38,643 nt of DNA from an uncultured Lachnospiraceae bacterium (GTDB taxonomy: Bacteria > Bacillota > Clostridia > Lachnospirales > Lachnospiraceae). The stretch lies in contig CACYEN010000176.1 of NCBI GenBank assembly GCA_902773435.1, forward strand, positions 1-38,643, given 5' to 3'. Below the pieces are notes generated by a model that was not told the DNA's origin, ran no database searches, and was given only the letters and a program-made list of their open reading frames with translations. Positions 28,389 through 33,905 of the stretch are shown in pieces (position 1 is the stretch's first letter; the number at the start of each line of letters is the position of its first letter). Made by a program: the position numbers and the translations under genes.

Positions 28389-29486
28389 ATGGCAGCAGAT
28401 ATTCATGAGATCCCGCACAGGGAGCGCACGAAGGAGATCACGATCGGGTCGAGAACGATCGGGGGAGGAAACCCGATCGCGATCCAGTCGATGACGAACA
28501 CGAAGACCGAGGATACGGAGGCGACGGTGCGCCAGATACTTGAACTGGAGCGCGCCGGGTGTGACATTATCCGCTGCACGGTTCCGACCATGGAGGCCGC
28601 CGTGTCGCTCGGAGCGATCCGGAGGCGGGTGCACATCCCGGTCGTCGCCGATGTCCATTTCGATTACAGGCTCGCGATCGAAGCCATCGAGCGGGGCGCC
28701 GACAAGATCCGGATCAATCCCGGCAACATCGGGGGCCCGGAGCGCATCCGGGAGGTCGTCGCGGCGGCGAAGATGAGAAATATCCCGATCAGGGTCGGGG
28801 TCAACTCCGGCTCCCTCGAGAAGGAGATCATCGAAAAGTACGGCAGGGTGACCGCCGAGGGACTCGTGGAGAGCGCGCTGGACAAGGTGCGCATGATCGA
28901 GGACTTCAACTATGACAATATCGTGATCAGCATCAAGTCCTCGGACGTCATGATGTGTGTGAAGGCGCACCGGCTGATCGCGGACGAGACGACGTACCCG
29001 CTCCACGTCGGCATCACGGAGTCGGGGACGGTCTTCTCCGGGGCGATCCGCTCGTCGGTCGGCCTTGCCCTGATTCTCTCGGAGGGCATCGGCGACACCG
29101 TCCGCGTCTCCCTGACCGGCGATCCGGTCCACGAGGTGAGGGCGGCGAAGATGATCCTGCGGACGCTTGAGCTTCGGAGGGGCGGCATCGAGGTCGTCTC
29201 ATGTCCGACCTGCGGGCGGACGGAGATCGATCTCATCGGTCTCGCGAGGCAGGTGGAGGAGATGGTGCAGGATATTCCGCTCGACATCAAGGTCGCGGTG
29301 ATGGGCTGTGTCGTCAACGGCCCGGGAGAGGCGAGGGAAGCCGATATCGGCATCGCCGGGGGAAAGCACTCGGGGCTCCTGATCAGGCACGGCGAGGTCA
29401 TCCGGAAGCTGCCGGAGGATCAGCTTCTCCCCGCGCTCATGGAGGAGCTGATGAACTTTGGCCGGGACAGGGGCGCGGCGGAATAG
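28389..29486 (+). CDS. ispG: (E)-4-hydroxy-3-methylbut-2-enyl-diphosphate synthase
   Basis: A [4Fe-4S] enzyme of the MEP isoprenoid pathway converting MEcPP to HMBPP. The 365 residues comprise a TIM-barrel part (PIAIQSMTNTKTED, IPVVADVHFDYRLA, IRINPGNIG) and a C-terminal cluster domain with Cys272 and Cys275 (SCPTCGRTEID), Cys307 (GCVVNGPGEA) and Glu314. All cluster ligands are present. The ribosome site (gggagagagag) is rather far from the ATG, but no better start exists. It sits between folA and polC with short gaps. Confidence 0.96.
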   Translation: MAADIHEIPHRERTKEITIGSRTIGGGNPIAIQSMTNTKTEDTEATVRQILELERAGCDIIRCTVPTMEAAVSLGAIRRRVHIPVVADVHFDYRLAIEAIERGADKIRINPGNIGGPERIREVVAAAKMRNIPIRVGVNSGSLEKEIIEKYGRVTAEGLVESALDKVRMIEDFNYDNIVISIKSSDVMMCVKAHRLIADETTYPLHVGITESGTVFSGAIRSSVGLALILSEGIGDTVRVSLTGDPVHEVRAAKMILRTLELRRGGIEVVSCPTCGRTEIDLIGLARQVEEMVQDIPLDIKVAVMGCVVNGPGEAREADIGIAGGKHSGLLIRHGEVIRKLPEDQLLPALMEELMNFGRDRGAAE

Positions 29487-29501: not shown

Positions 29502-32500
29502 ATGGGGAGCGGTTTGAGATCGTTTTCGGAGACATTTCCCGGACTGGATCTTGACAGGAAGATCGCGGATTTACTGGATTATGTAACGGTGGAGCGGGTG
29601 ACCGTCAATTCGGCGAGAACCCGGCTCCGCGTTTATGTCTTATCGGATAACTGGCTGAAGAAGACTCACGTCCGGAAGATCGAGGCGGCGATCGCGGCGA
29701 AGATGTTCGGGGACGGCAGGGGAGACGTGCGCCTGATCGAGAGGTTCAGGCTGTCGTCGTCCTACACGCCCGAGAATTTCTACCGGGTGTACCGCCCGAG
29801 CATGAGCTTCGAGCTGAAGGAGGTCAGCCCGATCCTCAACCAGGCGTTCCTCCACTCGGAGGTCGTCTTCCCGTCCCCGTCGGAGATCCTGGTCCGCATC
29901 CCGGACAACCCGGTCTGCGCGCGCGAGGAGGAGCGCCTCCTCGGCTACTTCGAGAAGGTGTTCTGCGAGAGGGCGGGATTCCCGGCCCTCACGATCAGGA
30001 CCGAACTTCGGCGCGAGGACGCGAAGAAGCTCTTCGAGGACGACGACAGGAGGATCGAGGAGAAGGTCCGTCTCGTCACGGAGGCGAGTTCTGGCCGGCA
30101 GGCTGCGAGGAGCGCCGAGAAGAAACTTCCGAAGAAAGAGGAGAAGGTCTACCGCAGGCAGACAGGCCGCCAGAGCGACCCTGACGTGATCTACGGGCGG
30201 GGATTCGACGACGAGCCGGTCCCGATCGATTCGCTCGGGGAGGACCCGCGCGAAGTGACGGTGCGCGGGGAAGTCTTCGGAAGCGAGATGAGGGATACGA
30301 GAAACGGCAGGATCATCATGACGGTCTCTGTCACGGACTACACGGACAGCCTCCGCTTCAAGCTCTGGGTCGACAAGGGTGAGGAAGGGGAGTTTCTTGC
30401 CGTGTTCAAAAACGGCGGGACTTTTCTCATCAAGGGCTTCATGGATCTCGATCCCTACGACAGGGAGCTGATGATCAAGAGCGTGTACGGCATCAGGAAG
30501 ATCCCGCCGTTCCGCGGGGCCAGGGAGGACACCGCCCCCGAGAAGAGGGTGGAGCTCCACTGCCACACGCAGATGTCCGACATGGACGCCGTGTCCTCCG
30601 CGAAGGATATCGTGAAGCAGGCGTACCGCTTCGGCATGAAGGCGATCGCGATCACCGACCACGGGGTCGTCCAGGCTTTCCCCGAAGCGTGGAAGACGAT
30701 CGGCGGAAAGGGAGGAATTCCGAAGGACGCCGACATGAAGATCATCTACGGGATGGAGGCCTATCTCGTCGACGACACAAAGAACCTCGTGGGAGGGGAT
30801 ATGAGCGGCAGCATCCACGGACCTGCCGTGGTGTTCCAGACCGTGACGACCGGGCAGAGCCCGCTCGTCCACGAGATCATCGAAATCGCCGCGGTGAAGA
30901 TCGAGGACGGCAGGATCACGGAGGATTTCTCCACGCTGGTCAGGCCGGAGAGGCCGATCCCCTTCTCGATCCAGACCGAGACCGGGATCACCGACGACAT
31001 GGTGGCGTCCTCTCCGGGGCTGAAGGATGCGCTGGAGGGCCTGCTTGAATTCGCCGGGGACCTCACCCTGATCTCCTACGACGCGGGCATGGAGCTGAAT
31101 TTCCTCTACACGTCCTGCGGGAAGCTCGGGCTCCCCGCGCCGGCGGGAACCACGGTCGATATCGCCGCGGTCGCCAGATATATGGTGCCGGATCTCGGCA
31201 AGATCCGCTTCCGCACCCTCGTGCGCCACATGAAAGTGAACTGCGCCGATGAGATGCGGGCATTTCCGCGCGCCCAGAGCATGGGGTTCGTCTGGCTCCG
31301 CCTGCTCGACCTCATGGAGGACGCGGGGATCACGACCTACCGGGAACTCAACGAGAGGGGGACCGTCTCCGTCGACAGGATCCGGAACCTGCGCTACTAC
31401 CACGCGATCCTTCTCGCGAAAAATGAGACCGGCCGGAGGAACCTCTACACCCTCGTATCCGAGTCTCATCTCAAATATTTCAAGCTCCGGCCGAGAATTC
31501 CGAAGAGCGTACTCAACCGTTACAGGGAGGGCCTCGTGCTCGGCAGCGCCTGTTCCGCGGGCGAACTCTACCGCGCGATTGTCGAGGGGGCGTCGGATTC
31601 CGAGATCGCCGGGATCGTCAGGTACTACGACTACCTTGAGATCCAGCCGACCGAAAACAACGACTACCTGATGAGCGATCCGAAGAGCGGCATCAGGACC
31701 AGAGAGGACCTCGAGAACATCAATCGCAGGATCGTGCGGCTCGGCGATGAGTTCGGGAAGCCTGTGTGCGCGACCTGCGACGTCCATTTCCTTAATCCGG
31801 AGGACTGGATCTACCGCGCGATCATCCAGGCCGGCCACGGCTACAAGGACGAGGACGGCCAGCCGCCGCTCTACCTCCGGACGACGGACGAGATGCTCGA
31901 CGAATTCGCCTACCTCGGCCCGGAGAAGTGCAGGGAGGTCGTGATCACCAACACGATAAGGGTCGCGGACATGATCGAAAAGATCTCCCCGATCTATCCG
32001 GACAAATGTCCCCCCTCGATCCCGCACTCCGAGGAGGACCTCCAGAACATGTGCTATGAGACCGCGAAGGAGTGGTACGGGGATCCTCTTCCCGACGTCG
32101 TCGCGGCCAGGCTGGACCGGGAGCTCGGCTCCATCATCAGGAACGGCTACGCGGTCATGTACATCATCGCGCAGAAGCTCGTCGACAAGTCCAACGAGGA
32201 CGGCTACCTCGTCGGCTCCAGGGGGTCGGTCGGAAGTTCCTTCGCCGCGACGATGTCGCGGATCACGGAGGTCAATCCGCTGCCTCCCCATTACCGCTGC
32301 GGGAAGTGCAGGTACAGCGAGTTCGATTCCGAGGAGACGAGGGCCGCGCACGCCGAGGGGCGCTGCGGCTGCGATATGCCCGACAAGATCTGCCCGGTCT
32401 GCGGGGAGCCGCTGATCAAGGACGGCTTCGACATCCCGTTTGAGACATTTCTCGGATTCAAGGGAGACAAGGAGCCGGACATCGACCTCAACTTCTCCGG

Positions 32501-33905
32501 GGACGAGCAGGGCGTCGCGCAGGCCTACACGGAGGTGATCTTCGGGAAAGGCCAGACCTTCAAGGCCGGAACGATCGGGACGGTCGCGGACAAGACCGCA
32601 TTCGGCTACGCGCTCCACTACTTCGAGGAGAAGGGCGTCACGAAGAAACGCTGCGAGCTCGAGAGGCTGGCGGCGGGCTGCGTCGGGGTGAGGCGCACGA
32701 CAGGGCAGCACCCGGGCGGCGTCATCGTGCTGCCGAAGGGCATGGACATCAACTGGTTCACGCCGGTTCAGCACCCCGCGAACGACGTGAACTCGCCGTT
32801 CATCACGACGCACTTCGATTATCACTCCATCGACACGAACCTGCTGAAGCTCGATATTCTCGGGCACGATGACCCGACGATCATCCGCATGCTGCAGGAC
32901 CTGACGGGGACGGATCCGCATCTCGTCCCGCTCGACGACAAGGGCGTGCTCTCGCTGTTCACGGGGACTGATGCCCTGGGCGTGAAGCCGGAGGACATAG
33001 ACGGATGCAGCCTCGGGACGCTCGGTGTGCCCGAGTTCGGGACGAACTTCGTCATGGGGATGCTGAGGGACACGAAGCCGAAGACATTTTCGGAACTCAT
33101 CAGGATCTCCGGCCTCTCCCACGGGACGAACGTCTGGCTGGACAACGCCCAGTTCTTCATCAGGAACGGGGACTGCACGCTGGGCACCGCGATCTGCACG
33201 CGCGACGACATCATGCTGAACCTGATCCAGTGGGGCGTGGAGCCCGAGCACTCCTTCAAGATCATGGAGTCGGTCAGGAAGGGCAAGGGGCTCACCCCCG
33301 CCCAGGAGGAGGAGATGGCGGAGCACGGCGTGCCCGCCTGGTACATCGAATCCTGCAAGCGGATCAAGTATATGTTCCCGAAGGCCCACGCCGCCGCCTA
33401 CGTCATGAACGCCTTCCGGATCGCCTACTACAAGATCAACTACCCGTTGGCCTACTACGCCGCGTTTTTCTCGATCCGCGCGAAGACGTTCGACTACGGC
33501 CGCATGTGTCTCGGGAGCGAGAAGCTCGAGTACTACGCGGACGAGATCAGGAGGAACCCGAACCCGACCGCGAAGGAGCAGGATGAGTTCGACGACATGA
33601 AGCTCGTGCGGGAAATGTACGCGAGGGGCTTTGAGTTCTGCAGGATAGACCTCTATGAGGCCCGGGCGACCCGGTGCAGGATCGTCGACGGGAAGATCAT
33701 GCCCCCGCTATCCTCGATCAGCGGGATGGGCGACACGCAGGCCTACGCGGTCGAGGAGGAGGCGAAGAAGGGGCCGTTCCTCTCGAAGGACGACTTCCGG
33801 GAGCGGACGCGGGTCTCGAAGACGATCATCGACCTGCTGGAGGAGTACGGCATTCTCGGGGACATCCCCGAGAGCAACCAGATCTCGCTCTTTGATCTGG
33901 CTTAA
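29502..33905 (+). CDS. polC: DNA polymerase III PolC with degenerate proofreading domain
   Basis: The replicative polymerase of low-GC Gram-positives, 1467 residues, normal for the family. The N-terminal domain (to about 225) is followed by an OB domain (235-340), then a PHP domain split by an inserted exonuclease domain. PHP residues are present (ELHCHTQMSD, AITDHG, YGMEAY, then CDVHF). The exonuclease insert spans about 440-605, but motif I reads VVFQTVTTG (Gln446, Val448) instead of D-x-E, motif II has Glu531 instead of Asp, and the final H-x-A-x-x-D reads MRAFP. The zinc site (Cys933 onward: CGKC, CGC, CPVCG) and catalytic Asp993/Asp995 (PDIDLNF) are intact, as is the SRGSVGSS loop. Polymerase activity is expected; DEDDh proofreading is not. 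The ATG follows ggagggg. Confidence 0.95.
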   Translation: MGSGLRSFSETFPGLDLDRKIADLLDYVTVERVTVNSARTRLRVYVLSDNWLKKTHVRKIEAAIAAKMFGDGRGDVRLIERFRLSSSYTPENFYRVYRPSMSFELKEVSPILNQAFLHSEVVFPSPSEILVRIPDNPVCAREEERLLGYFEKVFCERAGFPALTIRTELRREDAKKLFEDDDRRIEEKVRLVTEASSGRQAARSAEKKLPKKEEKVYRRQTGRQSDPDVIYGRGFDDEPVPIDSLGEDPREVTVRGEVFGSEMRDTRNGRIIMTVSVTDYTDSLRFKLWVDKGEEGEFLAVFKNGGTFLIKGFMDLDPYDRELMIKSVYGIRKIPPFRGAREDTAPEKRVELHCHTQMSDMDAVSSAKDIVKQAYRFGMKAIAITDHGVVQAFPEAWKTIGGKGGIPKDADMKIIYGMEAYLVDDTKNLVGGDMSGSIHGPAVVFQTVTTGQSPLVHEIIEIAAVKIEDGRITEDFSTLVRPERPIPFSIQTETGITDDMVASSPGLKDALEGLLEFAGDLTLISYDAGMELNFLYTSCGKLGLPAPAGTTVDIAAVARYMVPDLGKIRFRTLVRHMKVNCADEMRAFPRAQSMGFVWLRLLDLMEDAGITTYRELNERGTVSVDRIRNLRYYHAILLAKNETGRRNLYTLVSESHLKYFKLRPRIPKSVLNRYREGLVLGSACSAGELYRAIVEGASDSEIAGIVRYYDYLEIQPTENNDYLMSDPKSGIRTREDLENINRRIVRLGDEFGKPVCATCDVHFLNPEDWIYRAIIQAGHGYKDEDGQPPLYLRTTDEMLDEFAYLGPEKCREVVITNTIRVADMIEKISPIYPDKCPPSIPHSEEDLQNMCYETAKEWYGDPLPDVVAARLDRELGSIIRNGYAVMYIIAQKLVDKSNEDGYLVGSRGSVGSSFAATMSRITEVNPLPPHYRCGKCRYSEFDSEETRAAHAEGRCGCDMPDKICPVCGEPLIKDGFDIPFETFLGFKGDKEPDIDLNFSGDEQGVAQAYTEVIFGKGQTFKAGTIGTVADKTAFGYALHYFEEKGVTKKRCELERLAAGCVGVRRTTGQHPGGVIVLPKGMDINWFTPVQHPANDVNSPFITTHFDYHSIDTNLLKLDILGHDDPTIIRMLQDLTGTDPHLVPLDDKGVLSLFTGTDALGVKPEDIDGCSLGTLGVPEFGTNFVMGMLRDTKPKTFSELIRISGLSHGTNVWLDNAQFFIRNGDCTLGTAICTRDDIMLNLIQWGVEPEHSFKIMESVRKGKGLTPAQEEEMAEHGVPAWYIESCKRIKYMFPKAHAAAYVMNAFRIAYYKINYPLAYYAAFFSIRAKTFDYGRMCLGSEKLEYYADEIRRNPNPTAKEQDEFDDMKLVREMYARGFEFCRIDLYEARATRCRIVDGKIMPPLSSISGMGDTQAYAVEEEAKKGPFLSKDDFRERTRVSKTIIDLLEEYGILGDIPESNQISLFDLA

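Follow-up and report, generated by a model that had tools for sequence, protein, structure and literature searches.

A full-length but catalytically degenerate exonuclease insert in the PolC replicase of an uncultured Lachnospiraceae genus

The replicative polymerase PolC encoded on a 38,643-nucleotide contig of an uncultured Lachnospiraceae bacterium (CACYEN010000176.1 of assembly GCA_902773435.1, the whole of which is called the window below) carries a full-length DnaQ-like 3'-5' exonuclease insert in which all five residues of the DEDDh catalytic site have been replaced. The site was lost in the chromosomal PolC on the stem of the genus to which this bacterium belongs. Judging from the sequences, the PHP domain has since probably been the sole intrinsic proofreader of this polymerase, with the insert kept as a scaffold.

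The degenerate insert

The window holds a single polC (29502-33905, plus strand), a frame of 1467 amino acids without internal stop that is identified as PolC by NF001688 (1582 bits, cut-off 873) and TIGR01405 (1439 bits, cut-off 1043). Pfam places PHP at residues 351-706 with RNase_T (449-537) nested within it; it lists no OB domain, which was placed by alignment only. We aligned the insert with those of 29 Lachnospiraceae PolCs having an intact DEDDh site (exo-intact), as well as with PDB entries 9qpc and 2p1j. The five catalytic positions fall on Gln446 (codon from 30837), Val448 (30843), Glu531 (31092), Met585 (31254) and Arg590 (31269), that is, D446Q, E448V, D531E, H585M and D590R, of which only the D to E change is conservative. 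Motifs I and II read VVFQTVTTG and SYDAGMELNF, against VVFD(I/L)ETTG and AHNAxFDxxF in most of the relatives, and motif III reads DEMRAFPRA against xHHRAVDDA in 29/29. The initial annotation, made from the sequence of the window, had described a full-length insert with all five residues changed, four of them non-conservatively. The alignment agrees on this count, on motifs I and II and on the His of motif III; the last Asp, however, aligns with Arg590 and not with Pro589, one residue away.

Displacement of the catalytic residues within the insert was considered and rejected, since neither D-x-E nor H-x(4)-D is present in residues 436-632; there is thus no displaced active site of the usual spacing. 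The insert spans 148 residues from motif I to motif III, its PF00929 match scores 48 bits (cut-off 24), and its predicted model retains the PolC exonuclease fold (DEDD fold). Fold and profile are those of a DEDDh exonuclease, but the catalytic D, E, D, H, D set is missing. From its sequence the catalytic site is close to certain to be dead, and we infer that the insert would be unable to cleave DNA. The fold retained in the model suggests that its role is structural.

Gene decay can be dismissed, as had been argued from the intact frame: the frame is open, the state is genus-wide, and the ratio of nonsynonymous to synonymous substitution rates (dN/dS) of the exonuclease part lies between 0.063 and 0.177 for the five most closely related pairs of the genus. 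The dead insert is still under purifying selection, with reduced constraint. Median dN ratios (pairs not independent) of exonuclease to polymerase part (EXO/POL) were 3.48 in the genus and 1.87 in exo-intact relatives, against 1.38 and 1.36 for PHP/POL. At a polymerase identity of 0.75-0.80, exonuclease identity was 0.45 in the genus versus 0.605 in the relatives, and PHP identity 0.713 versus 0.696. Similarly, maximum-likelihood tree lengths on a fixed topology gave EXO/POL values of 3.02 within the genus, 3.57 on its stem and 1.33 on exo-intact branches, the corresponding PHP/POL values being 1.11, 0.48 and 1.23.

Fixation in the genus and losses in other lineages

PolC was searched for in 42 genomes of the genus. 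All five exonuclease positions were readable in 39 (37 in one piece, G009 and G003 from two pieces), G008, G037 and G040 having only PolC fragments that do not cover the exonuclease part; a duplicate of the window (L001) and a divergent PolC-like piece of G020 (L044) were left out of the counts. All 39 lack both the Glu and the last Asp. No DEDDh residue is retained in 32 of these PolCs and a single one in seven (the first Asp in two, the second Asp in one, the His in four). Sequencing or assembly error is excluded, because the frame is open and the same kind of loss recurs in all 39. Replacement by a second, intact PolC was likewise rejected: a search of the bacterium's own genome (2.74 Mb, 88.9 percent complete, the window being one of its contigs) returned PolC and one further match, DnaE1, and the one-contig genome G001 also has a single PolC. 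Elsewhere in the genus, G020 has a divergent PolC-like frame of 800 amino acids with motif I intact on another contig (L044 / L080), and G003 a short PolC-like piece of 37 percent identity.

In a PolC tree built without the insert, 35 genus copies are monophyletic (support 1.0) and adjoin the exo-intact G116 at the midpoint root; in a tree of the PHP part G116 is the sister of the genus (0.953). Fixation in a lineage, which had been raised as a possibility, is thereby borne out, and comparison with other Lachnospiraceae, also proposed at the outset, places the loss against a background of intact sites. Residue 685 (codon 31554-31556), beside the PHP cysteine ligand, is Ser in 35/35 genus copies and in G116 and Glu in 36/40 exo-intact relatives, a change that may predate the exonuclease loss. 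The named relatives in a GTDB scan are uncultured Lachnospiraceae, mostly with MAG or RUG names (RUG presumably standing for rumen), and include Candidatus Equihabitans merdae.

The family was sampled with 120 genomes, one per genus, 118 of which gave a PolC match. The DEDDh site is intact in 111 of the 117 other genera; three have a degenerate insert (G093, G080, G138), two have none (G094, G085), and the remaining one (G086) is a fragment lacking that part. A profile of intact inserts matches those of the window, G093 and G138 over nearly their whole length and that of G080 only partly. G138 is the weakest degenerate case, because an ambiguous base and a frame break adjoin its insert. In the tree without the insert, G138 groups with the exo-intact G149 (1.0), G094 with the exo-intact L051 (0.99), and G085 and G080 with the exo-intact G109 in one clade (0.997), several other nodes being weak. 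As exo-lost lineages group with exo-intact ones, there have been several, largely separate losses. The ispG motif lies upstream of polC in G094, G085 and G080, which makes these the same locus as the polC of the genus. Two genera, g40 and g53, each mix two degenerate with two intact inserts among four genomes, g98 being a single genome; the degenerate inserts of g40 are shortened, with 115-116 residues from motif I to III instead of 147. In addition to a complete exo-intact PolC, G121 encodes another copy that lacks the insert (L192 / L286).

At class level, PolC was matched in 94 of 99 genomes and read in 90 (excluding G000 itself, G218, G227 and G231). Of these PolCs, 73 have an insert that is intact wherever it can be read (71 in full, two being partly masked or cut), 15 have none, and two, from other families, carry in its place stretches not recognisable as an exonuclease. 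One of these stretches (L367, genome G255) has 89 residues and a weak exonuclease-profile match (E 0.005), the other (L377, genome G245) 221 residues and no such match; both may be inserts in advanced decay. All 15 insert-less PolCs and L367 have a complete PHP site, as does L377 in its readable part. PolC without the exonuclease is known from Clostridia and Negativicutes and has been put at 6 percent of PolC (PMC3919608). Median GC content was 0.495 at the 17 class loci without insert or with a remnant (L360-L370, L372-L377) and 0.422 at the 73 exo-intact ones, kinship being ignored; GC content was rejected as the cause of the loss, the exo-intact sister G116 being GC-rich as well (0.549).

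The PHP domain and other possible proofreaders

The nine PHP metal ligands (HHDHEH[C/H]DH), already noted as retained in the window, are complete in 39/39 genus PolCs. We take the DxH Asp of the window PolC to be the equivalent of D226 of Mycobacterium DnaE1. The replicative exonuclease of M. tuberculosis DnaE1 is a PHP site that holds three zinc ions; its activity is abolished by D226N, and the loop lining the groove to this site sits where PolC carries the DnaQ insert (PMC5636811). By analogy, once the DEDDh site was lost on the stem of the genus, the zinc-type PHP nuclease would have taken on proofreading, with mispaired primer ends travelling to its site. The dead insert, whose place is the PHP loop bordering the primer channel in DnaE1, would persist as a structural wall or guide.

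The strongest evidence of this analysis for a PHP domain still at work in the genus comes from rates: PHP accelerates where its own site has been lost, and not in the genus. In four broken-PHP lineages (G119, G045, G157, G158) PHP/POL is 1.51-2.83 and EXO/POL 0.93-1.25, the mirror image of the genus. Broken PHP ligands beside an intact DEDDh site, also the mirror of the window, were seen at L160, L174, L176 and L178 in the family and at L358 in the class, PHP evolving faster in the four family cases. On the two exo-dead branches outside the genus, EXO/POL is 2.06 (G093) and 7.76 (G080), and PHP/POL is 0.56 in G093.

Several observations weigh against a handover to PHP. The PHP/POL value of exo-dead G080, 1.48, exceeds the background of 1.23 and fits less neatly, and by tree length PHP is not more conserved in the genus than in exo-intact relatives. 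The PHP site is broken in 5/184 exo-intact PolCs and in 0/22 exo-lost entries, a link that is not significant by counting (the entries are not independent), since with so few broken sites among exo-intact PolCs none in 22 is expected by chance. A separate or DnaE1-borne proofreader is also compatible with the data. Finally, a proofreading-deficient polC is a mutator in B. subtilis, about 6000-fold with a MutL defect (PMC11890065), so that PHP does not rescue there. In the PolCs of E. faecium and G. kaustophilus the DxH Asp is replaced by Asn, which may explain the importance of the PolC exonuclease in B. subtilis.

Proofreading in trans, by a KapD-like or other standalone DEDDh protein or by the PHP domain of DnaE1, appears unlikely. 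The search for standalone DnaQ-type exonucleases called for by the initial annotation returned two RNase_T matches in the own genome, PolC and a 319-amino-acid frame whose best NCBIfam model is KapD (62 of 169 bits, below cut-off). Proteins of this length class and profile range occur in 34/42 genus genomes (sequence checked in only a few), including six of the eight that are at least 97 percent complete. The DnaE1 PHP ligands are complete, by eye, in 5/5 genus members read, and correction in trans has been reported, B. subtilis PolC acting on DnaE errors (PMC11890065, PMC12926913). On the other hand, a relative of the KapD-like protein is present in 80/120 family genomes (E 1e-10, some matches short and weak); of the five other exo-lost genera, G093 and G094 are among those listed as having it, and G080, G085 and G138 are not. 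Its presence does not track exonuclease loss, which weakens it as a specific compensation. In the own genome TIGR00573 (dnaQ) matches PolC alone; standalone proteins above its cut-off occur in only 5/42 genus genomes (G007, G011, G027, G034, G038), besides the PolC-like frame of G020. No dnaQ-type protein (epsilon) common to the 42 genomes was found by PF00929 or TIGR00573, although weak relatives could be missed, since PF00929 missed the insert of PolC itself in some genomes (e.g., G014, G021, G022). Exonucleases of the Pol I type (PF01612) were found in 6/42 genomes and not in the own genome. Proteins resembling Cas2 fused to a DEDDh exonuclease were seen by eye in G007, G011 and G001 (L076, L077, L078), the Cas2-DEDDh structure 8fy9 being among the PDB matches listed.

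Quite unlikely is a PolC without any proofreading, fidelity resting on base selection and mismatch repair. MutS (PF01624) is present in 42/42 genus genomes, and anaerobes are enriched in Pol I whose proofreading domain is inactive (PMC12926913); nothing would then keep the PHP ligands from drifting, however, and they are complete in all 39 PolCs, with a PHP rate unrelaxed in the genus and raised in the four broken-PHP lineages. That the degenerate insert was selected for a new role, such as binding single strands or contacting the clamp or some other partner, is improbable. Its full length and a dN/dS well below 1 would fit, as would three residues that never vary among 36 copies (Gly in TTG, Glu in EI, Arg in RA) and the near-fixed, genus-specific Arg590 (32/35) and Glu493 (32/34). 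Against this, Q, S, A, T and D all occur at the first catalytic position, a drift expected under relaxed constraint, and the insert is shrunken or gone in other exo-lost lineages.

Under proofreading by PHP with a scaffolding insert, dead inserts in other lineages would shrink and then be deleted, giving the known exo-less clostridial PolCs, and the full-length dead insert is likely an intermediate on this path. More tentatively, and somewhat short of an even chance, PolC replicases may have passed proofreading from the DnaQ-like insert to PHP repeatedly, the genus standing at the retained-scaffold stage and related lineages at those of shrinking and then loss.

Comparison with known polymerases and layout of the locus

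The PolCs of E. faecium (9qpc/9qrn/9qrl) and G. kaustophilus (3f2b) share domain order and fold with the window PolC, the exonuclease being inserted in PHP in 9qpc as well. Native PolC of this kind carries the DEDDh site that the window PolC has lost, the E. faecium protein studied by cryo-EM having been deliberately exonuclease-inactivated (PMC12592400); the window PolC, for its part, keeps the PHP Asp that is Asn in both. Exo-less PolC of Clostridia and Negativicutes (gkt900, PMC3919608) is likewise without DnaQ activity and paired with DnaE1, but lacks the insert that is full length and dead here. M. tuberculosis DnaE1 keeps the same nine PHP ligands and has no exonuclease insert; its PHP activity is proven (PMC5636811), whereas that of the window PolC is predicted from sequence. 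A retained, inactivated DnaQ-like domain also occurs in Pol I (PMC12926913), which unlike PolC is not the replicase.

According to a 2026 survey, it is PHP and not DnaQ that is inactivated in Pol III alpha subunits (PMC12926913). The genus is a counterexample, and may have been missed because its named records are all uncultured. Another study identified PolC by its RNaseT insert, the word exonuclease being absent from its main text (PMC11963600). We found no description of an exo-dead PolC in the literature, searched in CC-licensed PMC papers. Exo-less clostridial PolC was already known; as far as our literature searches show, the genus is the first natural PolC lineage described with a dead but retained insert. 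A dead insert beside an intact PHP site suggests a transfer of error correction from the insert to PHP. Other lineages lost the site separately, and the two genera mixing exo-intact and exo-dead species offer natural experiments: each pair presents one replicase in forms with and without DnaQ catalysis, both with complete PHP ligands, so that proofreading by the PHP domain of PolC, and the path leading to exo-less PolC, can be tested directly.

Features of the locus are listed in Table 1. The three Asp of the polymerase core, which we take to be the catalytic ones, are present in 38/38 readable genus pieces. The upstream neighbour was named ispG from a sequence motif, and the motif is found upstream of polC in 26/30 genus loci inspected.

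Table 1. Coordinates of polC, its parts and its upstream neighbour in the window
Feature	Position	Strand	Basis
ispG, directly upstream of polC	28389..29486	+	sequence motif
polC	29502..33905	+	NF001688, TIGR01405 above cut-off
PHP part 1, residues about 347-432; ligands HxH, MD, TDH, GxE all present	30540..30797	+	alignment
DnaQ-like 3'-5' exonuclease insert, residues 443-620, full length, without catalytic residues	30828..31361	+	profile, alignment, model
Motif I VVFQTVTTG, D446Q and E448V	30828..30854	+	alignment
Motif II SYDAGMELNF, catalytic D to Glu531	31074..31103	+	alignment
Motif III DEMRAFPRA, H to Met585, D to Arg590	31248..31274	+	alignment
PHP part 2, residues about 633-815; ligands YYH, SAC, CDVH all present	31398..31946	+	alignment
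Polymerase core, residues about 820-1280; three Asp (DDD) present	31959..33341	+	alignment

A very long antisense open frame lies opposite polC (29640-33389, minus strand), likely an ordinary effect of the 61 percent GC content.
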